33,427 nt of DNA from positions 1-33,427 of IMG/VR virus record IMGVR_UViG_3300046000_007766. The stretch is one strand, 5' to 3'. Positions 3,530 to 21,168 of this stretch are shown here, in pieces. A model generated the notes under the pieces. That model was not told the DNA's origin, ran no database searches, and worked only from the letters and a program-made list of their open reading frames with translations. Made by a program: the position numbers and the translations under genes. The DNA comes from a virus. Positions within the stretch are counted from its first letter, which is position 1. Every line of letters begins with the position of its first letter.

Positions 3530-3615
3530 GCTGCTGTGGTGAAATAGGTAGACACGAGGGACTTAAAATCCCTTGACCAGTGATGGTCGTGCCGGTTCGA
3601 TTCCGGCCAGCAGTA
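3530..3615 (+). tRNA. tRNA-Leu(TAA)
   Basis: 86 bases, class II. Acceptor GCTGCTG pairs with CAGCAGT (one G.T pair), anticodon loop CTTAAAA gives TAA, a long variable arm follows, and the T-loop is TTCGATT in a 5-bp GCCGG/CCGGC stem. Reads UUA, the main Leu codon of the phage genes. CCA is not encoded (A then CA). First gene of the array. Confidence 0.95.
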
Positions 3616-3635
3616 CAAAAACGTTCTTTAACATA

Positions 3636-3735
3636 TTGGTGGTAGTTAGACGAAAATGGAATTCCTGCTGTGATGTTAACTTAATCAGCATATTCAGAAG
3701 TAGAAATGAGGTACCGCAAATTCCTCGCCACCTAA
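3636..3735 (+). ncRNA. Structured spacer between tRNA-Leu and tRNA-Arg
   Basis: A possible closing stem TTGGTGG (3636-3642) with CCACCTAA (3728-3735, one bulged T) ends exactly 5 bases before tRNA-Arg. Inside are an interrupted stem TGC/TGAT with ATCA/GCA and GAGG/CCTC. The 3' end carries CGCCACCTAACT (3726-3737), an exact reverse complement of the first 12 bases of the Leu-like tRNA at 4732, so part of this spacer may be an inverted tRNA-like remnant. No coding sequence seen. Confidence 0.35.
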
Positions 3736-3740
3736 CTTAT

Positions 3741-3814
3741 GGTTCGATAGCTCAGCTGGATAGAGCAACAGCCTTCTAAGCTGTTGGTCACAGGTTCGAA
3801 TCCTGTTCGAATCA
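3741..3814 (+). tRNA. tRNA-Arg(TCT)
   Basis: 74 bases. Acceptor GGTTCGA pairs with TCGAATC, D-arm contains AGCTCAGCTGGATAGAGC, anticodon loop CTTCTAA gives TCT, T-loop TTCGAAT. Reads AGA, the dominant Arg codon of the phage. Confidence 0.95.
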
Positions 3815-3816
3815 CT

Positions 3817-3939
3817 AAGAGAGACAGTGAAGCTGTAATTGAGAAGTAGAGTGTATTAATTGCTGAAAAAGGGTTTATATTAGGTAGGCGTCACTCATTG
3901 CACTCAATCAGAAACCCTGAAAGACCCGAAGTCTCTCTT
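3817..3939 (+). ncRNA. Structured RNA between tRNA-Arg and tRNA-Tyr
   Basis: A 9-bp stem AAGAGAGAC (3817-3825) with GTCTCTCTT (3931-3939) encloses about 105 bases and ends exactly 5 bases before tRNA-Tyr. Inside, AGGGTTT (3870-3876) pairs with AAACCCT (3912-3918). In the loop of that stem, CTCAAT (3903-3908) is complementary to ATTGAG (3838-3843) outside it, which would make a pseudoknot. T-rich sequence follows the stem. No coding sequence. Confidence 0.45.
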
Positions 3940-3944
3940 TTTAT

Positions 3945-4027
3945 TGGAAGGTGGGTGAGTGGTTAAAACCGGCAGACTGTAAATCTGCTCCCTTACGGGT
4001 ACGGCGGTTCGAATCCGTCCCTTCCAA
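3945..4027 (+). tRNA. tRNA-Tyr(GTA)
   Basis: 83 bases, class II. Acceptor TGGAAGG pairs with CCTTCCA, D-stem GGT/ACC, anticodon region CAGACTGTAAATCTG gives GTA, a variable arm of CCC/GGG type, T-loop TTCGAAT. The U1-A72 pair is unusual for tRNA-Tyr, which normally begins with G; shifting the register by one loses a base pair. Confidence 0.92.
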
Positions 4028-4035
4028 CTAAACCT

Positions 4036-4112
4036 TGGCGTGTATCTCCTCAAGCTTATACCTTGTAGAAAGAGTAATTGGTCACATGAGAGTTCAAGTC
4101 TCTCCCCGCCAA
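4036..4112 (+). pseudogene. Decayed tRNA-like sequence
   Basis: TGGCGTG (4036-4042) pairs with CCCGCCA (4105-4111) except for one T/C mismatch, and a perfect T-arm GAGAG-TTCAAGT-CTCTC lies at 4088-4104, preceded by a TGGTCACAT variable-like segment. Between them no normal D-arm or anticodon arm can be folded. It follows tRNA-Tyr by 8 bases. It is either a decayed tRNA or a tRNA-like RNA with a changed central part. Confidence 0.4.
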
Positions 4113-4124
4113 CCTTTTATTAAA

Positions 4125-4156
4125 TTTGGAAATCAAAAAATTATTTTATATATTTA
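4125..4156 (+). promoter_or_regulatory. Promoter inside the tRNA array
   Basis: TTTGG at 4125-4129 and TATATTTA at 4149-4156, same 24-base pitch as the others and one of the two best matches in the window. It lies 32 bases before the lipoprotein start at 4189, and could also boost transcription of the downstream tRNAs. Confidence 0.75.
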
Positions 4157-4188
4157 TATAACACAAATATTAATTAATAAAAATAAAA

Positions 4189-4350
4189 ATGAAAAACGTA
4201 ATTTTCGCTTTGATCGCAGTCGCTACTTTGGCTGCTTGCTCAAACAGCACTGAGACTGCTGCTTGTGATTCATGTGCTACTGATTCTACTATGGTTGATT
4301 CAACTGTAGTTGATTCTATGGCTATTGATAGTTCAGTAGTTACAGAATAA
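4189..4350 (+). CDS. Small lipoprotein with DS repeats
   Basis: 53 residues starting at the ATG at 4189. MKNVIFALIAVATLAAC is a lipoprotein signal with lipobox LAAC (Cys17). The mature part is Ser/Thr/Asp/Val-rich: from residue 30 it has a 5-residue period, ATDST, MVDST, VVDSM, AIDSS, then VVTE. DST, DST and DSM fit the D-(S/T)-(A/I/L/M/T/V) O-glycosylation sequon known from Bacteroides. Similar tiny D-S-T lipoproteins are, as I recall, common in Bacteroidota hosts, so this is probably a host-derived 'moron' gene. It has its own promoter and is followed by tRNA spacer. Function unknown; envelope modification or superinfection exclusion would be possible. Confidence 0.8.
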   Translation: MKNVIFALIAVATLAACSNSTETAACDSCATDSTMVDSTVVDSMAIDSSVVTE

Positions 4351-4461
4351 TACTGAGTCTAGCCAAAAAATCCTGTTGCACTCGAACAGGTTGACCTCGG
4401 GGAAAAGTTAAAAAGGGGGAGTACGTGAACCGATATCGTCTTAGAACAAACCTCCCTATAA
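4351..4461 (+). other. Spacer before tRNA-Thr
   Basis: No coding sequence. GGGGG (4415-4419) can pair with CTCCC (4452-4456, one G.T), ending exactly 5 bases before tRNA-Thr, as in the other long spacers. The hairpin described at 4366-4390 lies in its first half. Confidence 0.35.
4366..4390 (-). terminator. Possible minus-strand terminator
   Basis: CCTGTT (4372-4377) pairs with AACAGG (4385-4390) across a 7-base loop, and six A's precede it on the + strand. Read on the minus strand this is a hairpin followed by T6. No minus-strand gene is known here, so it would only stop antisense transcription, or the match is chance. Confidence 0.3.
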
Positions 4462-4534
4462 GCCACCTTAGCTCAGTTGGTAGAGCTACTGATTTGTAAT
4501 CAGTAGGTCGGCGGTTCGAGTCCGTCAGGTGGCT
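4462..4534 (+). tRNA. tRNA-Thr(TGT)
   Basis: 73 bases. Acceptor GCCACCT/AGGTGGC, D-arm TTAGCTCAGTTGGTAGAGC, anticodon loop TTTGTAA gives TGT, T-loop TTCGAGT. Reads ACA. Followed after only 6 bases (CAAAAT) by tRNA-Met. Confidence 0.95.
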
Positions 4535-4540
4535 CAAAAT

Positions 4541-4612
4541 TGTGGGATAGAGCAGTGGTAGCTTGTTGGGCTCATAACCCAAAGGTCGGAGGTTCGAATC
4601 CTTCTCCCGCAA
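4541..4612 (+). tRNA. tRNA-Met(CAT), initiator-like anticodon stem
   Basis: 72 bases. Acceptor TGTGGGA/TCCCGCA, anticodon loop CTCATAA gives CAT, T-loop TTCGAAT. The anticodon stem has three consecutive G:C pairs (GGG/CCC) as in initiator tRNAs, but position 1 pairs with 72 (T-A), which bacterial initiators usually avoid. It may be an initiator or an elongator; a CAT anticodon could also be modified to read AUA. Confidence 0.9.
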
Positions 4613-4731
4613 CAAAAGCCCGAAGTACAAGGGAACGAAGATAGAGTAAGTCCTCTACGAAAGTATGAACCTCTCCAAATCGTGTGTTGGCACAGTTAGC
4701 AACTCTGGGGGTAATCTAAAAGTTGCAAAAT
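4613..4731 (+). other. Structured spacer before Leu-like tRNA 1
   Basis: 119 bases without coding sequence. Hairpins seen: TAGAG/CTCTA around 4644-4660 and GCAACT (4699-4704) with AGTTGC (4721-4726). The second ends exactly 5 bases (AAAAT) before the next tRNA-like gene. Confidence 0.35.
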
Positions 4732-4837
4732 AGTTAGGTGGCGGAATGGTAGACGCAAGGATAAGTGGTGAGGTGAGGCGGGTAATCCACCGTAGATACC
4801 ATATCCACGTATACAGGTTCGAATCCTGTCCTGACTA
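4732..4837 (+). tRNA. Leu-like tRNA with extended central arm (106 bases)
   Basis: Acceptor AGTTAGG pairs with CCTGACT, the D-arm GCGGAATGGTAGACGC is of tRNA-Leu type, and the T-arm is ACAGG-TTCGAAT-CCTGT. In place of a normal 17-base anticodon arm there is a long rod: GGATA/TATCC, then TGGT/ACCA, then GGTG/CACC around a loop of about 12 bases. No 7-base loop with U33 and a Leu anticodon can be found. It may carry an insertion that is removed, be a non-translating tRNA-like RNA, or be decayed. Its ends are nearly the same as those of the element at 4923. Confidence 0.6.
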
Positions 4838-4841
4838 CAAC

Positions 4842-4917
4842 GTGTTGTTCCCTTGAGAAAGGAATGTTATAAGTGGTTTTGACTGAGTACCAACAACACT
4901 AAGGACTTCTCATCCTT
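4842..4917 (+). ncRNA. Structured spacer with possible kissing loops
   Basis: GTGTTGTT (4842-4849) can pair with AACAACAC (4892-4899). Alternatively TTCC/GGAA (4848-4851 with 4861-4864) exposes TGAGAA (4854-4859) in its loop, and hairpin AAGGA/TCCTT (4901-4905 with 4913-4917) exposes the complementary TTCTCA (4907-4912). The last hairpin ends exactly 5 bases before the next tRNA-like gene. No coding sequence. Confidence 0.35.
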
Positions 4918-4922
4918 AAAAT

Positions 4923-5053
4923 AGTCAGGTGGCGGAATTGGTTAGACGCTACATAGATAGTCAACTACAACTGTAATAAACCCGCTGGCCACGGTTAATA
5001 AGAACAGCTCTGTCGTAGAGGTTGACATACAGGTTCGAATCCTGTCCTGATTA
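4923..5053 (+). tRNA. Leu-like tRNA with very large central domain (131 bases)
   Basis: Acceptor AGTCAGG/CCTGATT, Leu-type D-arm GCGGAATTGGTTAGACGC, T-arm ACAGG-TTCGAAT-CCTGT, all close to the element at 4732. The centre (about 75 bases) folds into nested stems: GTCAAC with GTTGAC, continued by TAC/GTA, then CTGT/ACAG, then ATAAACC with GGTTAAT (one mismatch). Only about 10 bases lie between the D-arm and this rod, too few for an anticodon arm. No credible anticodon is seen. It is likely a tRNA-like RNA, or a tRNA with an insertion. Confidence 0.6.
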
Positions 5054-5062
5054 CAAAATCCA

Positions 5063-5141
5063 GTGTTCGTGAGGTGTAAGCAACAGGAACGAAAACACCC
5101 TCATTAAATATGTTGCACGTGTAAGTAATGGAACCTTACAC
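5063..5141 (+). other. Structured spacer before tRNA-Ser
   Basis: Two hairpins and no coding sequence: GTGTTCGT (5063-5070) with ACGAAAACAC (5089-5098, bulged), and a 7-bp GTGTAAG (5119-5125) with CTTACAC (5135-5141). The second ends exactly 5 bases before tRNA-Ser. Confidence 0.4.
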
Positions 5142-5146
5142 AAATC

Positions 5147-5231
5147 GGAAGATTGGCAGAGTGGTCGATCGCGGCAGTCTTGAAAACTGTTGAACCGAAA
5201 GGTTCCGTAGGTTCGAATCCTACATCTTCCG
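5147..5231 (+). tRNA. tRNA-Ser(TGA)
   Basis: 85 bases, class II. Acceptor GGAAGAT/ATCTTCC, discriminator G as usual for Ser, anticodon loop CTTGAAA gives TGA, variable arm GAACC-GAAA-GGTTC, T-loop TTCGAAT. Reads UCA, very frequent in the tail genes. Confidence 0.95.
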
Positions 5232-5337
5232 CACCTTAATACCAATTCAGGTTCGTGAACAAAGGAGGCCTGTTCTTCTCGTGTAAGAAAGAAATCACGT
5301 TAAATCTCCTCATGCTAGGTGGAGGTGGTGACCTAGC
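5232..5337 (+). other. Structured spacer before tRNA-Gln
   Basis: No coding sequence. GAACA/TGTTC and CGTG/CACG hairpins are possible in the first half, and a clear 7-bp GCTAGGT (5314-5320) with ACCTAGC (5331-5337) ends exactly 5 bases before tRNA-Gln. Confidence 0.4.
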
Positions 5338-5342
5338 AACAT

Positions 5343-5413
5343 TACCCTCTCGTCTAACGGCAGGACAACTGGTTTTGGTCCAGTTAATTGGAGTTCGAAT
5401 CTCTGGGGGGTAA
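5343..5413 (+). tRNA. tRNA-Gln(TTG)
   Basis: 71 bases. Acceptor TACCCTC/GGGGGTA (one T.G), D-stem GTC/GAC, anticodon loop TTTTGGT gives TTG, T-loop TTCGAAT. Reads CAA. tRNA-Glu follows after 7 bases. Confidence 0.93.
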
Positions 5414-5420
5414 CAAAAAT

Positions 5421-5492
5421 GCTCGGTTCGTCTATCGGTTAGGACACCAGGTTTTCATCCTGGTAAGAGGGGTTCGATTCCCCTACCGAGTA
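5421..5492 (+). tRNA. tRNA-Glu(TTC)
   Basis: 72 bases. Acceptor GCTCGGT/ACCGAGT (one G.T), anticodon loop TTTTCAT gives TTC, T-stem AGGGG/CCCCT with loop TTCGATT. Reads GAA. Last tRNA of the array; the 87 bases after it hold the AT-rich leader of the secreted-protein gene, with no clear promoter box. Confidence 0.95.
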
Positions 5493-5579
5493 CAAATTCA
5501 AAAAAATTTTTCAATATGTATAAAGGACAATAGTGGTTTTTTCTAAGTGTTATTTGTTATTAATAACTTAAAACCAAAA

Positions 5580-7475
5580 ATGAAAAAACTAATTTTATCT
5601 TTAATGACCATGTTTATGGTCTTTTCTGCTTTTTCGCAGACTGTTCCTCCCGCTCCTGGTACAGGTAGATGGGTAATTGTAGACACAAATTACACAGTTG
5701 GTACATCTTCAGCTGGTGTTACTAAAGCAAATCTTTACTATCGAAACAACACAAGTACTAAAATTACTGGTATGCAGTTTCGTGTTTGGTATGATAAAGA
5801 TGCCTTTAATGGTTCTGCTCCTACGGTTGCTTTAAAATATGGTGCTACGGACCAATATATGCAGTATGTTACTAACACTACAGAAGGCAATATTACTGTA
5901 ACATTGGTTTATACTGGTACTAGTTCCACTTTTTCATATTCTGATGGTGCTGCTGTTGAAGTAACTTTAACACACGCGTCTGCAGCTACTTGGAATACTT
6001 TAGATAGTATTAAAACTATGAAAATTACAGGTACTACTACATTTAATAACTTAGCTGCTACTAATTACGGTAATGATACTACAATGACAGTTTATTCTTA
6101 TGGTGGTAACTTTATTCAACGTAAATTAACTTTTAAAGGTCGTTTCTTAACAGCTGCTGGTGATGGTGCTAAAAACTTATGGATTTCATTAGAAAAGAAA
6201 CCTAAAACAGGTTCAACTTGGACTACTGTAAACACATACAAGACTAATACTGCTGGTAGATTTAACTTTACAGAAACTTTAGATACAACATATTGGGATA
6301 CTCGTATTGCAATTAAAGGAGATACAATGTCTTATGGTAATGCTTTATCAACAGCAGACGCTCAAAAGATTAACCAAGTAATGTTAGGTCAATATACACC
6401 AACGGGATTTGATTTTTATGCAATGGATGTAAATGGAAATAATAGTATTACAATTGCAGATGCTTATTCTGTATTTGGTAATATTGCTGGTAGATTTACT
6501 TCATGGCCAAATAGTGTTCAAAACTTATTGTTCTTTACCAAAACTGAAAGAGATTCTATTAATGGTAAAACAGTAAGCAAAGCTGCTACAATTCCTGGTG
6601 CTACAAACTTCACACACTATATTAATGGTGGTGTTGATTCAGTTACATATTATGTAGTAGTTAAAGGTGATGCTAATTCAACTGGATTTAAAATGGCTCG
6701 TTTAACACCTATTAGAATTGTCAACCCAGCTAATGCTAACAGATATATTATAGATAATACCGTTCAATATGATAACGTTTTACAGACTATCGAAGTTAAC
6801 ATGCCTAAAATCAATGTTGAAGAAGGTAATTTAGTAAATATTCCTGTTAAAGTGTTTACAAATGGTAAAACATTAGGTGCATTACAATTAGATTTAAAAT
6901 ATGATACTGATTTACTTGAATTTAGAAAAGTAGAAAATAGTGAAAAAGCTATGAAATGGATCTCGTATGTAAACCCATCAAATGGTATTGTATCTTGGGG
7001 TGGATTTGATATACAAAATTCAAACATGTTAAATGATGGAGATCAAGTATTTACCTTACAATTTGTAGCTAAAAAACCTCAATCTGAGTGGGGTACTGCC
7101 GCCGTATGGACTGGCGAAAAATACGTGGGAGATAACGTCTCTAAAGACATGAATATAACTCCTGCAATGGGTATTATTGAGGTAAGAAAAATGGCTTATA
7201 GACCAAAAATTAATCCTGAATTATTTGAATTAAGAGCTACTCCTAATCCAAATGATGGCAATATGGTAATTAATTTTAACATTTTAGAAGAAGGAAAAAC
7301 TGAGGTTTCTATTTTTAATATGCAAGGACAAAAGGTAATTGAAGTTGTTAACGAAAACATGCCTAAAGGTGAATATGTATACTCAGTAAATTCATTATTA
7401 CCCGCAGGTATTTATTATGCCTCTGTAAATAATAATGGAAATTTTGCTACAAATAAAATTTTAATTAATAAATAA
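5580..7475 (+). CDS. Secreted cohesin/dockerin-like protein with T9SS sorting domain
   Basis: 631 residues from the ATG at 5580; the GTG at 5547 would only add residues before a clear signal peptide (residues 1-20, ending AFSQ). Domains: cohesin-like beta-sandwich (about 30-178); carboxypeptidase-regulatory-like beta domain (180-250); dockerin-like region (257-306) with a calcium-loop pattern at D283, N285, N287, D294; second cohesin-like domain (400-537: NIPVKVFTNGKTLGALQLDL..YDTDLLEF); and a type A T9SS C-terminal domain (549-631) with PNPNDG, VSIFNMQGQKV, AGIYYASV and terminal KILINK. Known T9SS substrates with this tail cross the outer membrane and become surface-attached or secreted. The phage would therefore use the host T9SS. 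Stop overlaps the next start (TAATG). Confidence 0.85.
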   Translation: MKKLILSLMTMFMVFSAFSQTVPPAPGTGRWVIVDTNYTVGTSSAGVTKANLYYRNNTSTKITGMQFRVWYDKDAFNGSAPTVALKYGATDQYMQYVTNTTEGNITVTLVYTGTSSTFSYSDGAAVEVTLTHASAATWNTLDSIKTMKITGTTTFNNLAATNYGNDTTMTVYSYGGNFIQRKLTFKGRFLTAAGDGAKNLWISLEKKPKTGSTWTTVNTYKTNTAGRFNFTETLDTTYWDTRIAIKGDTMSYGNALSTADAQKINQVMLGQYTPTGFDFYAMDVNGNNSITIADAYSVFGNIAGRFTSWPNSVQNLLFFTKTERDSINGKTVSKAATIPGATNFTHYINGGVDSVTYYVVVKGDANSTGFKMARLTPIRIVNPANANRYIIDNTVQYDNVLQTIEVNMPKINVEEGNLVNIPVKVFTNGKTLGALQLDLKYDTDLLEFRKVENSEKAMKWISYVNPSNGIVSWGGFDIQNSNMLNDGDQVFTLQFVAKKPQSEWGTAAVWTGEKYVGDNVSKDMNITPAMGIIEVRKMAYRPKINPELFELRATPNPNDGNMVINFNILEEGKTEVSIFNMQGQKVIEVVNENMPKGEYVYSVNSLLPAGIYYASVNNNGNFATNKILINK

Positions 7476-7837
7476 TGGCCATTAAAGATACTGTAAAAAA
7501 AGCATTAGGTTTTGATAAACCTGATTTTGTAAAAGTAGATGATAAAAATCGTTTCTACTTTATGTTACAACAAATGCAAAATAACCGTTGGAAAATTACG
7601 GTAATTGTATTAGGATTATTTTTCTTCATTATTGCTGGTATTAACTCTGCTGTTTTCTTTGGGATTGCTATCCAGGAATCTTGGAAAGAAATGTTACTTA
7701 TTCTTTTAGGTGCCTTTGTTGGTAACTTAAATAAGGTTGTGGATTACTGGTTCAATTCAGAGGATAGAGATAAAATGCTTATCCAAAAAGTTGACGAAGA
7801 AGATGGAACTACATTATCAAATACTTTAAACCCCTAA
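7475..7837 (+). CDS. Two-TM membrane protein, holin-like
   Basis: 120 residues with two hydrophobic segments at about 41-65 and 72-90, a charged N-terminal half-domain, and a short acidic C-terminal tail. The stretch LLGAFVGNLNKVVDYWFNS resembles small phage membrane proteins annotated as holins, with a conserved aromatic DYW after the second TM. It lies between the T9SS substrate and the export/lysis genes. A second two-TM candidate (11970) sits closer to the endolysin, so which one is the holin is open. Confidence 0.55.
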   Translation: MAIKDTVKKALGFDKPDFVKVDDKNRFYFMLQQMQNNRWKITVIVLGLFFFIIAGINSAVFFGIAIQESWKEMLLILLGAFVGNLNKVVDYWFNSEDRDKMLIQKVDEEDGTTLSNTLNP

Positions 7838-7841
7838 TAAA

Positions 7842-8165
7842 ATGTCAGAAGAAAAAGAAGAAAGCGTTATGTCAGCTACTAAAAAAGCCATTATTGGAGC
7901 TATTACTACAGCAGTTACTGCTGGTGGTGCTTGGTTCGCAACTCACTTAGGTGGAGGTGAAACAGAAGCTGAAGAAGGTACAAAAACAGAACAAGTAGCT
8001 CCGGCTCCTGTTATTGTAAATGTTCAACAAAGCCAAGAAAACAAACAGCAAGTTAAACAAGGTGGTGGAACAAACACCATTATCAAAGAGCGTGTAGTAG
8101 AAAAACCTGCTGCTACTCCTGCTCCTGCTAAAGCTGAACCTGCTAAAGAAGAAGATCCATGGTAA
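7842..8165 (+). CDS. One-TM protein with Pro/Ala-rich tail
   Basis: 107 residues. A charged N-terminus is followed by one hydrophobic segment (about 17-36, AIIGAITTAVTAGGAWFATH) and then a long hydrophilic tail rich in Glu, Gln, Pro and Ala (VQQSQENKQQVKQGGG, KPAATPAPAKAEPAKEEDPW). The layout recalls inner-membrane proteins whose tail spans the periplasm, such as TonB or i-spanins. Its last 7 bases overlap the start of the following lipoprotein gene, an arrangement seen in spanin pairs. No family is recognised. Confidence 0.6.
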   Translation: MSEEKEESVMSATKKAIIGAITTAVTAGGAWFATHLGGGETEAEEGTKTEQVAPAPVIVNVQQSQENKQQVKQGGGTNTIIKERVVEKPAATPAPAKAEPAKEEDPW

Positions 8166-8857
8166 AAAAATGGTTTAACAAATTCATGGCTCTTGTAGTT
8201 ATAACTCTTTCTGGTTGTGGTTCTATGAAAACTACAACTGAAAAAGATGTTATTGAAACTAAAGACATTTCAACAGTATCAAATTATACAGATAGCTTAA
8301 AATATGCTGTACAAGTAGTAAATGTTGATATGACTAAAGTTTTATCCCTCTACCCTGATCTCCAGGAAAAAGGAGTAGGTTTAGGATTTGCCGAGTCAGT
8401 ACTTGATTATTTAGATGAAACAAATAGATTTATATTCACCGAAGAAAAATCGGAGATCAAAGAACGTATGGTTACTCAGTTCAAAGCTTCTAAAAAAGGA
8501 GTCTTCGAAGAGCCCATTGATGGAAAGGGTAAGATTAAAGCTGCTCGTTACTTTGTTTATGTTACTGTGGCCGATTTTGCTGTTGATGAAGACGAAACCG
8601 TTCAAGGTGGTAAAGCAAAAGTTGTTGTTACTACGTTCATACGTTTACAAGTTCGCTTTGTTGATGCCATGACAGGTCAAATCTATATTGGTTCTGGGGA
8701 AGGTGAAGCTACTAAAGTTGGTGAATCTTTCTTAAAATCATTAGATGGGATGAAATTCTCTCAAAGCACTGTTGGTAAGGCAACTCGTAAATCTTTAGAA
8801 ACTGCAAGTACTAAAGTAATCGAAAACCTTATTAAGAACGGTGTCTTTAAAAATTAA
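8159..8857 (+). CDS. CsgG-like outer-membrane lipoprotein
   Basis: 232 residues. Signal with lipobox LSGC (Cys20). The mature protein follows the CsgG pattern: KYAVQVVNVD strand, GLGFAESVLDYLDETNRF helix (like the A..L...L...GRF of CsgG), AARYFVYVTVADF, then VVVTTFIRLQVRFVDAMTGQ with IYIGSGEGEA, and a C-terminal VGKATRKSLETASTKVIENL helix. CsgG forms the nonameric outer-membrane pore that secretes curli subunits. No CsgA, CsgB, CsgE or CsgF is recognised here. The gene overlaps a one-TM protein upstream (7 bases) and a signal-peptide protein downstream (17 bases), so the three are translationally linked. It is a good candidate for a phage-encoded outer-membrane channel; whether the membrane-spanning hairpins are intact cannot be told by eye. 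Confidence 0.75.
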   Translation: MVKKWFNKFMALVVITLSGCGSMKTTTEKDVIETKDISTVSNYTDSLKYAVQVVNVDMTKVLSLYPDLQEKGVGLGFAESVLDYLDETNRFIFTEEKSEIKERMVTQFKASKKGVFEEPIDGKGKIKAARYFVYVTVADFAVDEDETVQGGKAKVVVTTFIRLQVRFVDAMTGQIYIGSGEGEATKVGESFLKSLDGMKFSQSTVGKATRKSLETASTKVIENLIKNGVFKN

Positions 8858-10250
8858 AATATTAATACTATTTTTACTTGGAGGGTTGTCTCTTTACGGA
8901 CAATCCTTCATGTATTCTTATACAGATCCCTGTACTAGAGAATTAAAAACTTTAACTTATGATATGTCTACTCCAGTAGTAGTTTCATATTATGGTAGAG
9001 TTAGAGCATTTACTTATAACGAAATACAAACAGGAGTATTTGATGCTTGGATTAATGATATTTTTAGTCAAGTACAAACTAGTCCCTGTCAAGGAGTTTT
9101 AACTTCAACAACTACTACATCAACAACAAATTTAACAACAAATATTATCAATACGGTTTTGAATTTAAATTCCATTACTGCTATTACTTCAATAGGAGGA
9201 ATTAGTAATAACTTGGGAGGTACTGTAAATCTTGGAACAAATTCAAACAACAATGAACAAAATAACAATAGCAACAATAGTAACTCTAGTAATAACAATG
9301 CTTCTTCTAATAGCTCAAGCTCTAATCCCGGCAATGGTAATAATGGTGGTGAGTCTGGTAATGGTGGCTCTAACAATAGCAACCCTCCCGGAGGCGGAAA
9401 TACAGGAGGAAATGGAGGAAATTCCGGTGGAGGATCTAACGGAGGATCAGAGACGGGCGGAACTGGGTCTGGAGGTAACTCCGGAGGGACAGTACAGAAC
9501 GATACCAAAGAAGGGACCACACCTACGAAAGAGGAAATAAAAGAAACTAAAGTTGAAGAACAAAAATCTTCATCAAATAATGTTTCAAAATCCACTTCTA
9601 AAGCAAAAACCGAAACTCAAAAACCTGCTATTCTTTTAACAGGAGATATTGTTGGTCTTCAAAAAACTGAAGATGGTTCTCAAGATGCTAGAGGTACATT
9701 TTCCTATACTCGTGTAAAGGGAGATGGAAGTGCATCCTTAGGTTTATCAGCTGATTATATGCTCCGTGCTAAAATTAGTAATATTACTATTATGAGATCT
9801 TGGATTGGTATTAAAGATAATGGTAATAAACATATAAACCTTATATCAAGCGGTTTCTCTATAATGCCGGGGTCTATATCGAATACATCGATGTTTATTC
9901 GTATAAACAGTCTAAAACGGTTTACTGCGCTTTATGGTGCTGCGGCATCATATGGTAAATTATATCAAGAAGAACTTATATCCGGTTTAGCAATTGCTGG
10001 TTTTATGTATAAGGGAAAAATAGCTAAAAAAATTGATGGAACAATAATAATGGCTGGTGTTTATTCTCCCTATACAAAATATTATACAGCTGATTGGTTT
10101 AAATCAAGACCTATTATAGTCCCATTTTTTAATTTTAATTATAAGATGACTAAAACATTTGGTATTGGTTTAACAGGAGGTACTACTTATATGGCGGGGC
10201 AAAACGTGTTAAACTATCAAGTATTATGTGGCGCAAAATTAATCTTATAA
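8841..10250 (+). CDS. Exported protein: N-terminal domain, Asn/Gly-rich linker, C-terminal barrel-like domain
   Basis: 469 residues from a GTG start at 8841; no ATG is available before the clear signal peptide (about 1-20, LILFLLGGLSLYGQ), and the start overlaps the CsgG-like gene by 17 bases. Residues 22-86 form a small domain with Cys31 and Cys83. A Thr-rich stretch and a low-complexity Asn/Ser then Gly-rich linker (about 130-226) follow, then a Lys/Glu/Thr segment. Residues 265-469 are rich in alternating beta strands and end GAKLIL, like an outer-membrane beta-barrel. Next to the CsgG-like gene it could be its partner or cargo. No family recognised; tail fibre is a less likely alternative because of the signal peptide. 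Confidence 0.7.
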   Translation: MSLKIKILILFLLGGLSLYGQSFMYSYTDPCTRELKTLTYDMSTPVVVSYYGRVRAFTYNEIQTGVFDAWINDIFSQVQTSPCQGVLTSTTTTSTTNLTTNIINTVLNLNSITAITSIGGISNNLGGTVNLGTNSNNNEQNNNSNNSNSSNNNASSNSSSSNPGNGNNGGESGNGGSNNSNPPGGGNTGGNGGNSGGGSNGGSETGGTGSGGNSGGTVQNDTKEGTTPTKEEIKETKVEEQKSSSNNVSKSTSKAKTETQKPAILLTGDIVGLQKTEDGSQDARGTFSYTRVKGDGSASLGLSADYMLRAKISNITIMRSWIGIKDNGNKHINLISSGFSIMPGSISNTSMFIRINSLKRFTALYGAAASYGKLYQEELISGLAIAGFMYKGKIAKKIDGTIIMAGVYSPYTKYYTADWFKSRPIIVPFFNFNYKMTKTFGIGLTGGTTYMAGQNVLNYQVLCGAKLIL

Positions 10251-11305
10251 TATTACTTTTATTAGGGATTAAGATTTATGCTCAATCTCCTTTATGTGCC
10301 AGTAGACCTACAACGTTTTGTTGTGAGTATGTTTCTAGTGTAACTATTAATGGTAGAACATTTGCTGGTAGTACTGGATTCTCAAATACCTCCGGAGGTA
10401 GTCCTGCTGGTTATTATGATTATGCTTATACAGCGGATACAGTCCCTAGAATTAAAGCAGGACAAAGTATATCTATTTCATATACAGCTGTTACAAATGG
10501 TAATTATATGGAATATTTTAAACTTTGGATTGACTTTAATGGTAATGGAGTGTTAACAGATGCTGGTGAGTTGGTTCATAGTTCAAATTATCAATGGACA
10601 GGTACTAAAACTGTTACATCTACTTTTACAGTTCCTACCTCTGTTTATAATGGAGAAGTTTATATGAGATTTGTAATGCAATACTCAGGTTCTCCTACTA
10701 TTTGTGGAACATATCCTTATGGAAATACATTTGATTTTAAAACTAGAATTGTTGGTGCTACAGATCCTTTTTCATATTCAGGTTACATTTATAACTCTGA
10801 GGGAGTAGGAGTACAAAATATACCAGTTAAATTTTATTCTAAATTAAAATCTTCTTCTACTTATACTTTTGAAAGTACTATTAATACAGATGCAAATGGT
10901 AAATATGCTATCTCATCTACTAAAGACGCTACAGTTTATGATTTTCAAATCGAAATCAGTAGCTTAACTATTTCATCTCCTGCTGTTAGTGATGCTCAAT
11001 CATTTAATCAAAAAGTATTAAGTCGATCTTTTAATGCTAGAGACTATTATAGAATGGATGTTAATAATGATGATAATTTAACTATTACAGATGTTTATTT
11101 AGTTTATGCTAAAATAATAGGTAGAGCATGGAGAAGTCCGGTTCCAAATTATCGGATTTTCACCCCAACCGAGTGGAATACTATTAATACTTCATCATCT
11201 AATCTTAAATCAACCTACTCAGGAACTCAAACTATTACTGTATCTGGAGTGTCTAATAAAGGTAGTTCTAATTATTATTTATTTCGTACAGGTTATAGGA
11301 ATTAA
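10226..11305 (+). CDS. Secreted GEVED-domain protein with dockerin-like module
   Basis: 359 residues, start overlapping the previous gene by 25 bases. Signal peptide 1-20 (ending IYAQ). Residues about 30-175 match the GEVED domain of Bacteroidota secreted proteins (YFKLWIDFNGNGVLTDAGEL, NGEVYMRFVMQY), with Cys24, Cys32, Cys33 and Cys160 possibly in disulfides. Then a beta domain (183-245) and a dockerin-like region (256-305) with D278, N280, D282, D289 in the calcium loop. The beta plus dockerin part is related to that of the 5580 protein (RMDVNNDDNLTITDVYLVYAKIIGR is similar to its AMDVNGNNSITIADAYSVFGNIAGR counterpart, each quoted in part). It lacks a T9SS tail, so its exit past the outer membrane would need another route. 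Confidence 0.75.
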   Translation: MWRKINLIILLLLGIKIYAQSPLCASRPTTFCCEYVSSVTINGRTFAGSTGFSNTSGGSPAGYYDYAYTADTVPRIKAGQSISISYTAVTNGNYMEYFKLWIDFNGNGVLTDAGELVHSSNYQWTGTKTVTSTFTVPTSVYNGEVYMRFVMQYSGSPTICGTYPYGNTFDFKTRIVGATDPFSYSGYIYNSEGVGVQNIPVKFYSKLKSSSTYTFESTINTDANGKYAISSTKDATVYDFQIEISSLTISSPAVSDAQSFNQKVLSRSFNARDYYRMDVNNDDNLTITDVYLVYAKIIGRAWRSPVPNYRIFTPTEWNTINTSSSNLKSTYSGTQTITVSGVSNKGSSNYYLFRTGYRN

Positions 11306-11316: not shown

Positions 11317-11757
11317 ATGTTAGCAATCTTATTACCTTTATTTTTATCTACTTCTAACCCTTGCTATAAAGTAGATACTGTTTACAATTATACATCTATT
11401 GAAACTGTTGGTGACAGAAATGTTACTTTTGGTGTGAAAGAGACTACTGAAGAAATTGCCTCTGATAATGGATTTCAATTATGCGAAACTGCTGATAAAA
11501 ATATTAGTGTTGAAATAATAAAAATTGAATCCCCAGAACAAATTGTTAACATCGTTGGTATGCAATGGTTAAAAAAAGATTACATTGTAAAAGTAGTTGT
11601 AACCATTGATGGTAAAAGTTACGAAGAAGAATCTAAAAAGAGTACATTTTTGTTTGCCGCTTTATTAAATGTAGAAGATAATAAAATACCACTTAATAAA
11701 AAAGTATTTTCAAAAACATTAGAATCTGCCTTAAAAAGTGCTTTTAAAAAAATATAA
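11317..11757 (+). CDS. Small exported protein of unknown function
   Basis: 146 residues. The short hydrophobic N-terminus MLAILLPLFLSTSNPC looks like a minimal signal peptide. The rest alternates strands and charged turns (NISVEIIKIES, KKDYIVKVVVTIDGKSYEEESK) and ends with an amphipathic helix (FSKTLESALKSAFKKI). This order, strands then a final A..A helix, is seen in small envelope lipoproteins and in the CsgG/LptE-like fold space, but I cannot place it in a family. It follows the export cassette and may be an accessory component. Confidence 0.6.
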   Translation: MLAILLPLFLSTSNPCYKVDTVYNYTSIETVGDRNVTFGVKETTEEIASDNGFQLCETADKNISVEIIKIESPEQIVNIVGMQWLKKDYIVKVVVTIDGKSYEEESKKSTFLFAALLNVEDNKIPLNKKVFSKTLESALKSAFKKI

Positions 11758-16000: not shown

Positions 16001-16005
16001 TTTTC

Positions 16006-16015
16006 ATATTTATAA
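16006..16015 (+). promoter_or_regulatory. ATATTTATAA motif before 16034
   Basis: Copy of the recurring 10-mer, 18 bases before the ATG at 16034, the first gene after the sigma factor. No TTTG box at the early-promoter distance. Candidate late promoter element. Confidence 0.35.
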
Positions 16016-16033
16016 GAAACTAATTGTATATTT

Positions 16034-16369
16034 ATGTCACAATTCGATAACGTTGTTTTTGGTAAGAAAAAATTCTCTGATATTTTAGAGGAAATTTATA
16101 ATAACCAAAAGAAAAAAGACCAACAAGTTACAGCTCTTATTTCCGAACTAAAACCACTAATTTCAGATATTGGTGATGCTACTTTAGTTGTTCCTTTAAT
16201 TAAGGAATATATGGAAATTAGTGTTAAAAACGATGATATTTTAATTAAAATGGCTGCGTTAGCACAACGTGCTATGCAAACCCAAACCGCAGAAGGTAAT
16301 CTAACCATTTCTGAAGAAGAAAAAGAACAACTTCTTTCTGCTATGAATGAATTAAAAGGAGAAAAATAA
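16034..16369 (+). CDS. Conserved hypothetical phage protein (111 aa)
   Basis: 111 residues, helical, soluble (FGKKKFSDILEEIYNNQKKKD, a DATLVVPLIKEYMEISVKND stretch). It sits directly before the spike gene and is coupled to it by TAATG, so it probably belongs to the tail/baseplate module as an assembly factor or minor component. No family recognised. Confidence 0.6.
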   Translation: MSQFDNVVFGKKKFSDILEEIYNNQKKKDQQVTALISELKPLISDIGDATLVVPLIKEYMEISVKNDDILIKMAALAQRAMQTQTAEGNLTISEEEKEQLLSAMNELKGEK

Positions 16370-17601
16370 TGACTCAATATGGATTTTCTTCTTTAAACCA
16401 AAATCTTAATTCAAATGCTAATAATAACTTTAATGTTAATACAGCGGCTTCTGTAAATGAAGTAGTACAAGCTGTAAGAGTATTAAGTATAGTTTTAGAT
16501 GAAAATCACCCTAAATTTAAAGAATTAGGTGAATGGAATGCTTTAGGTACAATTGAATATGAAGTTGTAAACAATCCTTTACCATCTCCATCATTACCCA
16601 CAGCTAAACCTTTAGATCCTAATAATAAAAATTTCCCATTAGTAAATGAAATAGTCTATATTATTTCTTTACCTTCAACTGATTTAAATACAATTACTTC
16701 AAATAGTATTAATTATTATATTAATATTGTTTCTCTTTGGAACCACCCCCATCATAACGCTTATCCAACAGATCCTAATCTTTTACCTCCATCTCAACAA
16801 AAAGATTACATCCAAACTGAAACCGGTAATGTTAGGAGAATAACAGATCAATCTACTGAAATCTATTTAGGTAGAACATTTAAAGAACGTTCAAATATTC
16901 ATCCAATTTTACCATTTGAAGGTGATATAATTTATGAAGGTAGATGGGGTAATAGTATAAGAATTGGTTCTACAGTACCTAATACTTCTAATAACTGGTC
17001 TTCAACAGGATCTTCTGGTGACCCTATTACTATCATCAGAAATGGTCAAGGAACTCAAACAGAAGAAGGATGGATACCAACAGTTGAAGATATTAATAAT
17101 GATGATTCTTCAATTTATCTAGCTTCGACCCAAAAAGTTCCTTTAAAGGCCTCAAGTACTAACTACTTTAGTTATAAAAACAATGCACCACAAACTCCAG
17201 AGCAATATTCTGGTAAACAAGTGATTTTAAATTCTGGTAGATTAGTATTTAACACAACTGCTGATCATTTATTATTTAGCTCTAAAAAATCCATTAACTT
17301 AAATGCTGTAGATGGTGTTAATATTGATACCCCAACAATAGTTTTCCAATCAGGAAATGTGTATATAGGTTCAAAAAATGCAACTGAACCTTTACTATTA
17401 GGAAACCAAACCGTAAACTTACTAAACCAGTTAATTTCAAATTTAGCATCATTTGCACAAGTTTGTAGTATATTAGTTTCTACCCCTCCAGGAACTCCAA
17501 TAGCACCTTTAAATATAGCTGCTACTCAATTACAAGGTTCCCTAAACGCTTTACAAGCTAATTTAAATAATTTAAAATCAAAATATAATTATACAGTATA
17601 A
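16369..17601 (+). CDS. gp5-like baseplate spike protein
   Basis: 410 residues. After an Asn-rich N-terminus, residues about 30-160 look like the OB-fold part of a spike (VVQAVRVLSIVLDE, LVNEIVYIISLPS). PFEGDIIYEGRWGNSIRIGS at about 180 is the classic gp5/VgrG-type turn. Later repeats (SGKQVILNSGRLVFN, HLLFSSKKSINLNAVDG, DTPTIVFQSGNVYIGS) form the beta-helix stem. The C-terminus is helical. Unlike T4 gp5 it has no lysozyme domain. The protein would be the membrane-piercing needle of the baseplate hub. Confidence 0.8.
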   Translation: MTQYGFSSLNQNLNSNANNNFNVNTAASVNEVVQAVRVLSIVLDENHPKFKELGEWNALGTIEYEVVNNPLPSPSLPTAKPLDPNNKNFPLVNEIVYIISLPSTDLNTITSNSINYYINIVSLWNHPHHNAYPTDPNLLPPSQQKDYIQTETGNVRRITDQSTEIYLGRTFKERSNIHPILPFEGDIIYEGRWGNSIRIGSTVPNTSNNWSSTGSSGDPITIIRNGQGTQTEEGWIPTVEDINNDDSSIYLASTQKVPLKASSTNYFSYKNNAPQTPEQYSGKQVILNSGRLVFNTTADHLLFSSKKSINLNAVDGVNIDTPTIVFQSGNVYIGSKNATEPLLLGNQTVNLLNQLISNLASFAQVCSILVSTPPGTPIAPLNIAATQLQGSLNALQANLNNLKSKYNYTV

Positions 17602-18536
17602 TGGCTACTCCAATTGAATTAGATCAAATTAGATTAGAAGAATTAGCCAAAGCAGAAAAACAATCTGCCCAAGCAAACCAAAAAACTGTAGATAATACGT
17701 TAATTATAAGTGCTTTACCTGAAGATCAAAAACCCAAAGGAACAGCAAAATTACCCTCATTATTGTTTAGTTTAGGATCTCAAATCCCTCAAATTATTCA
17801 ACCCTCATTACAAAATTTAATAAACCAATACATCCAAGATATTGATATTTGTCCAAATGAGGTAACATTAAATGAATTAATTACTCAAAGAAATAATATT
17901 GCTCAATCATTAAATAATATAGGTGTTAGAGTTGATCAATTAGGTTCTTCAATAACGGGTGTATCTAATTTTTTAACTGTAACTTTAGCCCTTTTAACAT
18001 CTGTAGATGTAGCATCAGTAATAGCATCTGCTGCCGCTAAAATACTTCCTGTAGCCCCCGGAGCTGTTCCTGCTGCTTTAAACGATGCTCAAACTCTCAT
18101 AAGAAAAACTACTTTTGATAAATTAGGAAATTCTAAATTATCTAAAATTCAAGGTGTAATAAGTAGTTCTGCGTTAGTTATTTCTATTGTAGGAACTTAT
18201 ATTTTAACAGCTAAAAGTTTATTAGATATTATAGATTCTTATATAAATAAATGCCAATTAAATCCTAATATTATACCAATATCGGATACTGTTAATTCTA
18301 TAGCCACCGCCCAATTACAAGCATCTCAAACCCAAAACCAAACAACATACCAGGGTTTTATTATAGAAATAGAAGAAGTTCCATACACACCTACTGTAAC
18401 TAGAAGACGTGCTGTTGGAAAAAATCAAACAGGTATTATATTGATTCAAACAGAATTGTCATTTACAACAAATTCACAAACTTTAATAAATGAACTTAAA
18501 TTCATTATCGATAGAGATAATTTAAAAGCTTACTAA
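17601..18536 (+). CDS. Tail/baseplate-associated structural protein (311 aa)
   Basis: 311 residues. A Gln-rich charged start, then long helical and hydrophobic stretches (FLTVTLALLTSVDVASVIAS, VISSSALVISIVGTYILTA) and a beta-rich C-terminus (YQGFIIEIEEVPYTPTVTRR, TGIILIQTELSFTT). Position between the spike and gp25 suggests a hub or tail-interior component that could insert into the host membrane during DNA delivery. No firm homology by eye. Confidence 0.6.
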   Translation: MATPIELDQIRLEELAKAEKQSAQANQKTVDNTLIISALPEDQKPKGTAKLPSLLFSLGSQIPQIIQPSLQNLINQYIQDIDICPNEVTLNELITQRNNIAQSLNNIGVRVDQLGSSITGVSNFLTVTLALLTSVDVASVIASAAAKILPVAPGAVPAALNDAQTLIRKTTFDKLGNSKLSKIQGVISSSALVISIVGTYILTAKSLLDIIDSYINKCQLNPNIIPISDTVNSIATAQLQASQTQNQTTYQGFIIEIEEVPYTPTVTRRRAVGKNQTGIILIQTELSFTTNSQTLINELKFIIDRDNLKAY

Positions 18537-18540
18537 TTTT

Positions 18541-18551
18541 AATATTTATAA
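18541..18551 (+). promoter_or_regulatory. AATATTTATAA motif at a gene start
   Basis: Third exact copy of the 11-mer, 3 bases before the ATG at 18555. As at 11304, the distance is short for a normal promoter. Confidence 0.25.
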
Positions 18552-18554
18552 ACA

Positions 18555-18902
18555 ATGAAACCATCAGATTTTAAAAAAATTATTAAGGAAGCCGTAAAAG
18601 AAGCTATTCAAGAGGAATTAAAAGATATCCTGTTGGAAGCTGTACGTGCTCCTAAAACGGTTGTTAATGAAACCATAAGAGATACATACGCTCAACCACA
18701 TATTTCTCAACCAAAACAATTAACAGCTTCAGAACGCAGAGACATGTTCTCAGGAATTTTAGGTGAAATGCAAATGGGAAATCCAGCCACCTCAGCATAC
18801 GCTGGTAATTTACAAGTAGGTGGACCTGTAGATACTGTTAATGGATCGTTACCTGAAGGACAAGTAGGTTTAGATCAAATAATGGCTTTAATGAATAAAT
18901 AA
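18555..18902 (+). CDS. Small virion-module protein (115 aa)
   Basis: 115 residues: amphipathic N-terminal helix (DFKKIIKEAVKEAIQEELKD), a middle with TASERRDMFSGILGEMQMG, and a Gly-rich C-terminus ending LDQIMALMNK. Short proteins with this KEAI.EEL start are, in my memory, frequent in T4-like structural clusters, but no function is assigned. Coupled by TAATG to gp25. Confidence 0.6.
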   Translation: MKPSDFKKIIKEAVKEAIQEELKDILLEAVRAPKTVVNETIRDTYAQPHISQPKQLTASERRDMFSGILGEMQMGNPATSAYAGNLQVGGPVDTVNGSLPEGQVGLDQIMALMNK

Positions 18903-19309
18903 TGGCATTTGGAGCAAAGAAAATATTCCCTATAGATACTAAACCAGGCACTGGTGTTGGTGTTGCTATTCCTTTCAATGCTCCTGGTGTTTTTAAAATT
19001 ACTTATACTACAAGAGAAGCTACTAAATCTAATTTAATTAATTTCTTTTTAACTAATAAAGGAGAAAGATATTTAAACCCAATTTTTGGAGGAGATTTAC
19101 GAGCATTTATTTTCCAACAAATTACTACAGGGAATTTAGATTCTCTTAAACAAGATATCCAATACCAGTTAAGTGTATATTTCCCTCAAGTTGTTATATA
19201 TTCATTAGATATAACATCATCAGAAGATTATAATCAAGTTAACGTAATTTTAAAATATAACATAAAAGATACAGGTTTATCTGACATCGTAGAAATAGTA
19301 TTTACATAA
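18902..19309 (+). CDS. gp25-like baseplate wedge protein
   Basis: 135 residues, the normal size for gp25. Key features are NLINFFLTNKGERYLNPIFG, GGDLRAFIFQQIT and a C-terminal strand set (VNVILKYNIKDTGLSDIVEI). gp25 is the wedge protein that starts sheath polymerisation and is conserved in myoviruses, type VI secretion systems and other contractile systems. Coupled by TAATG to its usual partner gp6. Confidence 0.88.
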   Translation: MAFGAKKIFPIDTKPGTGVGVAIPFNAPGVFKITYTTREATKSNLINFFLTNKGERYLNPIFGGDLRAFIFQQITTGNLDSLKQDIQYQLSVYFPQVVIYSLDITSSEDYNQVNVILKYNIKDTGLSDIVEIVFT

Positions 19310-21168
19310 TGGCAACCAAAAGAAAAAATATCCAATATATTAACAGGGATTTTAGTGAAATAAGAGCTAGTCTTATTGATTATGCTAAAACTTATTTCCC
19401 TACAACCTACAATGATTTTACTCCAGCATCACCTGGTATGATGTTTATGGAAATGGCTGCTTATGTAGGTGATGTAATGTCTTTTTATCTTGATAATCAA
19501 GTTCAAGAAACATATTTACAATACGCTCGCCAAACAAATAACTTGTATGAGTTAGCTTATATGTTTGGTTATAAACCAAATGTAACTCAAGTAGCAACAA
19601 CTTATATAGATTTTTATCAACAAGTTCCTGCTCAACCATCATCTCCATATTCTCCGGATTTTACATATGCTTTATTTATTGATCAAAATGCACAAATCCA
19701 ATCAGCTACTAATCCTAATGTAACATTCTTAGTAGAAGACCCAATAGATTTTAGTGTTTCATCTTCAGGAGATCCTACGGAAGTATCTATTTTTAGTATA
19801 GATGGAAGTAATAACCCAACATATTATCTTTTAAAGAAAACACGTAAAGCTATTTCTTCAACAATTAATACAACTACCTTTACGTTTGGTGCACCACAAC
19901 AATTTTCTACCGTTGAAATTAATGCTCCAAAAATTGTTGGTATTTTAGATATATTCGATACTGATAGTAATGAATGGTATGAAGTAGATTATTTAGCTCA
20001 AGAATGTATTTATAAATCAATAAAAAATACAAATCCAAATTCACCTAATCTTTCACAATATAAGGGTGATACACCTTATCTTCTTCAATTAGAACAGATC
20101 CAAAGAAGATTTATTACAAGATTTATCAATTCAGGATCTCTACAATTACAATTTGGCGCTGGCACAGCAGCTGATACAGATGAAACAATTATCCCTAATC
20201 CTAATAATGTTGGTTTAGGTTTACCGTTTGAAAAGACTAAGTTGACAACAGCTTATGCTCCTTCAAACTTTATATTTACTAAAACTTATGGTATTGCACC
20301 TTCACAAACTACTTTAACAGTTAGATATTTAACAGGTGGTGGAGTTGAAGCAAATGTTCAATCAAATGATTTAACAAATTTAACAGCAAACATATCCTTT
20401 TTAAATTCAAGTTTAAATGCAACAACAGCACAAACGGTATTTGATTCTCTAGCAGTCACAAACCCAGAAGCAGCTGATGGAGGAGGAGATGGAGATACAA
20501 TTGAGGAATTAAGACAAAACACCTCAGCAAACTTTGCAACACAATTACGTAACGTAACTCAAGATGATTATTTAGTAAGATCATTATCAATGCCTGCTAA
20601 ATATGGGGTTGTATCAAAAGCTTATATTGAACCAACTAAAGCACTTACTTTATCTGCTGGTGAATCTAATTCCGTATTAGACTTGTATATATTGTCATAT
20701 AACGTAAACAATCAATTAAACACAGCGTCTACTGCTTTAAAGCAAAATTTAACTACATACCTATCTCAATATAGAATGATTAATGATGCTGTTTCTATTA
20801 AAGATGCATTTATCATCAACATTGGAGTAAATTTTGATATTATTGTCCTCCCAGAATTTAATAGTAATCAAGTATTATTTGATTGTATTACAGCATTAAA
20901 GGATTATTTTGCAATTGATAAATGGCAAATTAATCAACCTATTATATTAAGAGATATTTATATCCTTTTAGATAAAATTACAGGTGTTCAAACTGTTAAA
21001 AATATTGAAATTTCAAATTTAACAGGAACTAATTTAGGATACTCAGTATATTCCTATGATATAAACGCAGCAACAATTTCAAATGTGATTTATCCTTCAC
21101 TTGATCCTTCAATATTTGAAGTAAAATATCCAAACACAGATATTCAAGGTAGAGTAGTAAATTTATAA
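19309..21168 (+). CDS. gp6-like baseplate wedge protein (Baseplate_J family)
   Basis: 619 residues, close to T4 gp6 in size. N-terminus IQYINRDFSEIRASLIDYAK, TPASPGMMFMEMAAYVGDVM and SFYLDNQVQETYL are characteristic of gp6. In the middle, EELRQNTSANFATQLRNVT followed by DDYLVRSLSMPAKYG is the Baseplate_J signature. The C-terminal quarter has the usual FDIIVLPEFN and QINQPIILRDIYILLD strands. gp6 dimers form the inner ring of the baseplate and contact gp25 and gp53. Confidence 0.88.
   Translation: MATKRKNIQYINRDFSEIRASLIDYAKTYFPTTYNDFTPASPGMMFMEMAAYVGDVMSFYLDNQVQETYLQYARQTNNLYELAYMFGYKPNVTQVATTYIDFYQQVPAQPSSPYSPDFTYALFIDQNAQIQSATNPNVTFLVEDPIDFSVSSSGDPTEVSIFSIDGSNNPTYYLLKKTRKAISSTINTTTFTFGAPQQFSTVEINAPKIVGILDIFDTDSNEWYEVDYLAQECIYKSIKNTNPNSPNLSQYKGDTPYLLQLEQIQRRFITRFINSGSLQLQFGAGTAADTDETIIPNPNNVGLGLPFEKTKLTTAYAPSNFIFTKTYGIAPSQTTLTVRYLTGGGVEANVQSNDLTNLTANISFLNSSLNATTAQTVFDSLAVTNPEAADGGGDGDTIEELRQNTSANFATQLRNVTQDDYLVRSLSMPAKYGVVSKAYIEPTKALTLSAGESNSVLDLYILSYNVNNQLNTASTALKQNLTTYLSQYRMINDAVSIKDAFIINIGVNFDIIVLPEFNSNQVLFDCITALKDYFAIDKWQINQPIILRDIYILLDKITGVQTVKNIEISNLTGTNLGYSVYSYDINAATISNVIYPSLDPSIFEVKYPNTDIQGRVVNL

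Follow-up and report, generated by a model that had tools for sequence, protein, structure and literature searches.

The gene at 5580..7475 encodes, we are inclined to believe, the anchor of a phage surface-display cassette that would present a lectin on the infected Bacteroidota cell. It lies in a linear fragment of 33,427 nucleotides from an IMG/VR virus record (IMGVR_UViG_3300046000_007766), referred to here in its full length as the window. Its phage context is secure, as profile searches also identify baseplate, primase, and GH19 endolysin genes in the window. The evidence from sequence strongly supports a bona fide type IX secretion system (T9SS) type A tail on the gene product. The main point, absent from an earlier note on this DNA whose interpretation is partly supported overall, is that the gene belongs to a conserved cassette of several genes, among them those for a CsgG-like protein and an adhesin (Table 1).

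Table 1. Coordinates of the anchor gene, its domains, and the neighboring cassette genes in the window
Feature	Position	Strand	Evidence or remark
T9SS-tailed cohesin anchor protein, 631 aa	5580..7475	+	PF00963, PF18962, and TIGR04183 above cut-offs; AF2 pLDDT 76
Signal peptide, residues 1–19, Gln at +1	5580..5636	+	Sequence; Q-rule (PMC10653852)
Ig/transthyretin-like domain and dockerin-like module, residues about 181–320	6120..6539	+	Homology to the 10226..11305 adhesin
Cohesin domain, residues 399–537	6774..7190	+	PF00963; VIA Z 17.6
T9SS type A C-terminal sorting domain, residues 549–631	7224..7472	+	TIGR04183, PF18962; PDB profile matches
Small two-TM holin-like protein, optional member	7475..7837	+	Holin-like by inspection; present in 47/54 loci
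Small membrane-anchored protein with Pro/Ala/Lys-rich tail, core member	7842..8165	+	Conserved in all loci
CsgG-fold outer-membrane lipoprotein, 232 aa, lipobox LSGC	8159..8857	+	AF2 pLDDT 72; Foldseek; VIA
Exported protein: N-terminal domain, Ser/Gly/Asn-rich linker, conserved C-terminal domain	8841..10250	+	Beta-barrel look by inspection
Secreted adhesin: GEVED, Ig, and dockerin-like module	10226..11305	+	PF20009, E 3e-14
Small protein, often with signal peptide, core member	11317..11757	+	Conserved in all loci

The anchor protein and its T9SS tail

The earlier note had described a 631-residue open reading frame with a signal peptide and the tail motifs PNPNDG, VSIFNMQGQKV, AGIYYASV, and a terminal KILINK, all of which are present. 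Profile searches confirm the tail. TIGR04183 scores 41.8 bits against a curated cut-off of 23 (E = 8e-11) and covers residues 554–630 of 631 and profile positions 2–72 of 72, and PF18962 scores 33.8 bits against a cut-off of 27 (E = 4e-8) at residues 555–629. In the AF2 model, residues 549–631 fold into an all-beta domain. The best PDB matches of an anchor-family profile, at residues 550–629, are the T9SS C-terminal domains 8glk_D and 8glj_D, from entries that we take to be translocon complexes. Por_Secre_tail, Cohesin, and TIGR04183 all match in 48 of 48 non-redundant anchor homologues, and the median dN/dS of 0.16 for the tail and 0.12 overall (dN/dS values of 0.08–0.16) indicates that the tail is under purifying selection. 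Because all 48 homologues match and the tail appears to be selectively maintained, chance does not account for it. From these features, it is straightforward to infer that the anchor would be handed to the host T9SS.

Tails above the cut-off were found in 84 of 86 phage records (38/39 and 46/47), nearly always one per record; the records span 11–308 kb, and some were chosen via the anchor, where a tail is expected, and most via the CsgG-like gene. The near miss among the first 39 records is L049, in which the anchor reading frame is split. Locus L217 (record G078) differs from nearly all others in encoding two T9SS-tail proteins above the cut-off.

By inspection and a simple script, the anchor begins with MKKLILSLMTMFMVFSAFS/QT, a hydrophobic leader with Gln at +1, and the same script places Gln at +1 in 117 of 123 anchor homologues. 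Gln directly behind the signal peptide is the Bacteroidota Q-rule (PMC10653852), and it recurs in 91 of 93 8841-type proteins and 82 of 89 adhesins.

The ‘cohesin-like modules’ of the earlier note were borne out for one clear cohesin (residues 399–537) and a weaker cohesin-like domain at the N-terminus; the modules between them are Ig/transthyretin-like and dockerin-like. The clear domain matches PF00963 with 42.5 bits against a cut-off of 24.1 (E = 1e-10), and its AF2 model aligns in VIA with Z 17.6 over 136 residues at 2.5 Å. The best 45 VIA entries for the anchor model are cohesins throughout. By profile and predicted fold, residues 399–537 qualify as a true cohesin, with putative dockerin binding. 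Since VIA-align of the whole anchor returned mostly cohesins, the Ig and dockerin-like parts were hardly probed by fold. In comparisons of the family profile with the PDB, residues of about 181–250 resemble transthyretin-like/Ig domains. The dockerin-like module (residues of about 250–320) has one good Ca-binding loop and one degenerate loop, and its top PDB profile matches are dockerins with E-values of 0.015–0.019. Pfam Dockerin_1 matches 1 of 48 anchors and 5 of 61 adhesins, with E = 0.0002 at best. The assignment of this module as a dockerin, in both the anchor and the adhesin, is weak.

A conserved cassette with an exchangeable adhesin

Six genes, of the anchor, 7842, 8159, 8841, 10226, and 11317 types, occur together in every one of the 54 loci whose flanks are long enough, a linkage that holds given one member, since block members served as queries to find the loci. 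An optional seventh gene, of the 7475 type, is present in 47 of the 54. Anchor relatives are found in many IMG/VR contigs, and the block is kept in distant phages, down to about 30% identity, as well as in the isolated Flavobacterium phages “immuto”. In the latter, the anchor is encoded as two proteins, each with its own signal peptide, the second consisting only of signal peptide, cohesin, and T9SS tail. Such a split is expected if the cohesin/tail part anchors partners.

The earlier note had judged host contamination unlikely, and we reject it as a source of the gene: the gene is conserved in many phages, isolates included, and no cellular relative was found in a genome scan. This single scan used short peptide patterns, which distant relatives could escape, and covered 85,000 species genomes of bacteria and archaea. 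The same kind of scan with the CsgG-like family retrieved only two contigs from metagenome-assembled genomes (MAGs), which we tentatively read as phage sequence in bins. A CsgG-like relative is encoded at L107:10001-10696. Its contig, 254 kb long and assigned to a Bacteroidetes MAG, has two T9SS tails and is possibly a binned large phage.

A stretch of higher G+C immediately before the cassette (3530–5493) contains eight tRNA genes (Leu, Arg, Tyr, Thr, Met, Ser, Gln, Glu). Farther upstream, the product of 1178–1645 matches PHROG families, one of them a homing endonuclease family, and the 603–1127 product, whose frame overlaps the end of the preceding open reading frame, contains GSFDVLHTGHIKL, by inspection typical of nucleotidyltransferases. 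Downstream, in the stretch 16001–20000, the GC skew is negative from about 16 kb on, though the genes remain on the plus strand.

The model of the 8159 product resembles CsgG in Foldseek (E = 8e-7) and in VIA (Z 12.4 over 158 residues), where the first eight entries are CsgG throughout (Z 10.8–12.4). The window protein has no match to PF03783, which matches 9 of 37 relatives, all with E-values of 0.011 or worse, and exceeds its cut-off in 1 of 16 records. With the fold matching in a moderate-confidence model and the sequence profile failing, this product is best described as CsgG-like, not CsgG. The 7842-type gene usually overlaps the 8159-type gene. PDB sequence-profile searches with 8159 and 11317 found nothing, and Pfam searches of 8841 and 11317 gave only scattered matches to unrelated families.

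The adhesin shares a module with the anchor: its C-terminal Ig and dockerin-like region is homologous to anchor residues 182–345 (BLASTP E = 2e-21; hhalign probability 99.9). Its GEVED domain is replaced in relatives by a C-type lectin (30/61), a PA14 domain (3/61), or domains without a Pfam name. For instance, the anchors of L201 and L202 are 99.4% identical, and their adhesins, typed from a sequence pattern, carry a C-type lectin and a PA14 domain, respectively. In total, 123 pairs of this kind differ in ligand domain with the CsgG-like protein more than 95% identical. The whole adhesin gene also moves between phages, as between L217 and the window, where the adhesins are 78% and the anchors 47% identical. 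The adhesin at L010:10706-11908 has a large inserted domain without a Pfam name, shared by about 15 relatives, possibly a new glycan-binding domain. A diversity-generating retroelement was considered as the source of the lectin variation and rejected, with no reverse transcriptase (PF00078) in 24 records, many of them fragments.

Proposed surface display and competing explanations

In the mechanism that we propose, the anchor, the adhesin, the 8841 protein, and the CsgG-like lipoprotein would leave the cytoplasm via Sec during infection. The host T9SS would read the anchor tail, move the anchor across the outer membrane, and fix or release it there. The adhesin, which lacks a T9SS tail, would take another route across the outer membrane, most plausibly, at a guess, the phage CsgG-like pore aided by the 7842, 8841, and 11317 products. 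The dockerin-like module of the adhesin would then dock on the anchor cohesin, placing an exchangeable glycan-binding domain on the infected cell. Export of the anchor by the T9SS is the best supported of these steps; the case for cohesin–dockerin docking and for the role of the CsgG-like pore is weaker. The likely gain would be that other phages find their receptors masked (superinfection exclusion) or that neighboring cells are kept close for the progeny. The suggestions of the earlier note, that the product dresses the infected cell, aggregates neighbors, or blocks other phages, fit the neighboring, swapped lectin gene.

The main rival to display is a role in lysis, in which the CsgG-like lipoprotein and the 7842 product would form a pore in the outer membrane or a spanin-like pair and so set the timing of lysis or bring it to completion, with the exported proteins weakening the envelope. 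Phage Melnitz offers a precedent, as its CsgGF pore has been suggested to act in lysis (PMC9004378). Moreover, 7842 and 8159 overlap in the manner of genes for two-component inner-/outer-membrane spanins, yet 8159 encodes a 232-aa CsgG-fold protein. GH19 endolysin and holin-like genes lie close by in the window, and an endolysin-type gene is near the block in 45 of 54 loci. However, several distant loci have no such neighbor, the immuto block sits among replication and nucleotide genes with an annotated glycosidase about 6 kb off, and the T9SS tail, cohesin, and swapped lectin domains serve no evident lytic purpose. We consider a lysis role unlikely. Many Bacteroidota surface proteins are made via the T9SS, and the single, well-conserved tail per phage could also be a decoy that occupies or jams this system, so that gliding adhesins, or surface proteins used by other phages as receptors, are no longer secreted. 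For that purpose, a bare tail would be enough, and the conserved cohesin, the linked CsgG-like protein, and the adhesin would be unexplained, making a decoy quite unlikely.

Ig-like and lectin domains are frequent on phage virions, so that the cassette products might decorate the capsid or tail, with their Ig-like, cohesin-like, and T9SS-tail folds serving merely structural or binding roles. The BACON phages (PMC6949934) also speak for this view. Against it, three of the proteins have cleavable signal peptides with the Bacteroidota-specific Gln at +1 and a fourth has a lipobox, and the block lies apart from the structural genes in both the window and immuto; a virion role seems very unlikely. 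Domains of the GEVED, PA14, and lectin types often occur on proteins that Bacteroidota secrete, and the cassette could conceivably supply a binding protein, delivered by the T9SS, that aids the infected host in retaining or using polysaccharide outside the cell. The glycoside hydrolases among Cryophage T9SS cargo (PMC7468147) are in line with such an auxiliary product. However, Pfam searches found no catalytic domain in the anchor or adhesin families, and the genes form a conserved core cassette instead of variable cargo, so we give this explanation even less credence than a virion role.

Relation to known systems and significance

Three elements have precedents in phages: T9SS cargo, CsgG, and secreted proteins that follow the Q-rule. 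The earlier note had suggested that delivery to the host T9SS would be a distinct strategy, an idea that had been put forward before: Bellas et al. (2020) proposed that Cryophage cargo uses the host T9SS and suggested a role in superinfection exclusion (PMC7468147). Cryophage likewise has genes with T9SS type A sorting domains, one of them with PA14. However, its cargo forms variable islands (endoglucanase, GH39, PA14), whereas here one protein with cohesin and tail is core and the variation falls on a separate adhesin. The crAss-like BACON phages also encode T9SS tails in Bacteroidota phages, with no cohesin, CsgG-like, or adhesin cassette described in the passages covered (PMC6949934). Similarly, Q-rule proteins of Porphyromonas gingivalis phages have Bacteroidota-type signal peptides and are thought to modify the host outer membrane, although a term search of that report found no mention of T9SS tails (PMC10367356).

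The partial curli operons of pelagimyophages and Melnitz (PMC7029224, PMC9004378) also encode a phage CsgG pore, with unknown substrate, but their hosts are Proteobacteria without a T9SS and the phages have CsgF, whereas here the CsgG-like gene adjoins genes for exported adhesins, which are candidate substrates. ‘Sibling capture’ was proposed for the pelagimyophage curli genes (PMC7029224), and both this and the superinfection exclusion suggested for Cryophage (PMC7468147) fit as benefits of the cassette. Anchoring scaffoldins of cellulosomes offer another parallel, with a cohesin on a presumed surface-anchored protein and a dockerin-like module on the partner. In contrast to cellulosomes, anchoring here would depend on the T9SS, not on an S-layer or sortase, the partners are lectins, not enzymes, and, with the dockerin half weakly supported, cohesin–dockerin binding is putative. 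No description of the combined, conserved cassette was found in the literature searched, a scope that left out most subscription papers and preprints, and term searches of jumbo-phage papers found no mention of one.

A fuller version of the display mechanism, in which the phage CsgG-like pore and the host T9SS jointly build a cohesin–dockerin complex displaying a lectin subject to rapid exchange on infected Bacteroidota cells, and do so widely, is tentative, and we hold it to be rather doubtful. As far as we know, it would give a phage CsgG-type pore its first linkage-based set of proposed substrates, and no other cohesin–dockerin system has been described in phages. Because the immuto phages, whose host is Flavobacterium sp. 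LMO8, are in culture and have the cassette, the display idea is testable now. Large phages that infect aquatic Bacteroidota appear to hold, as core genes, a kit that remodels the surface of the infected cell via the secretion system of the host. If true, this would explain a class of conserved ‘hypothetical’ phage genes, provide phage CsgG-type pores, the role of which has been a question since 2020, with a substrate that can be tested, and reveal a new means of excluding superinfecting phages or capturing host cells.
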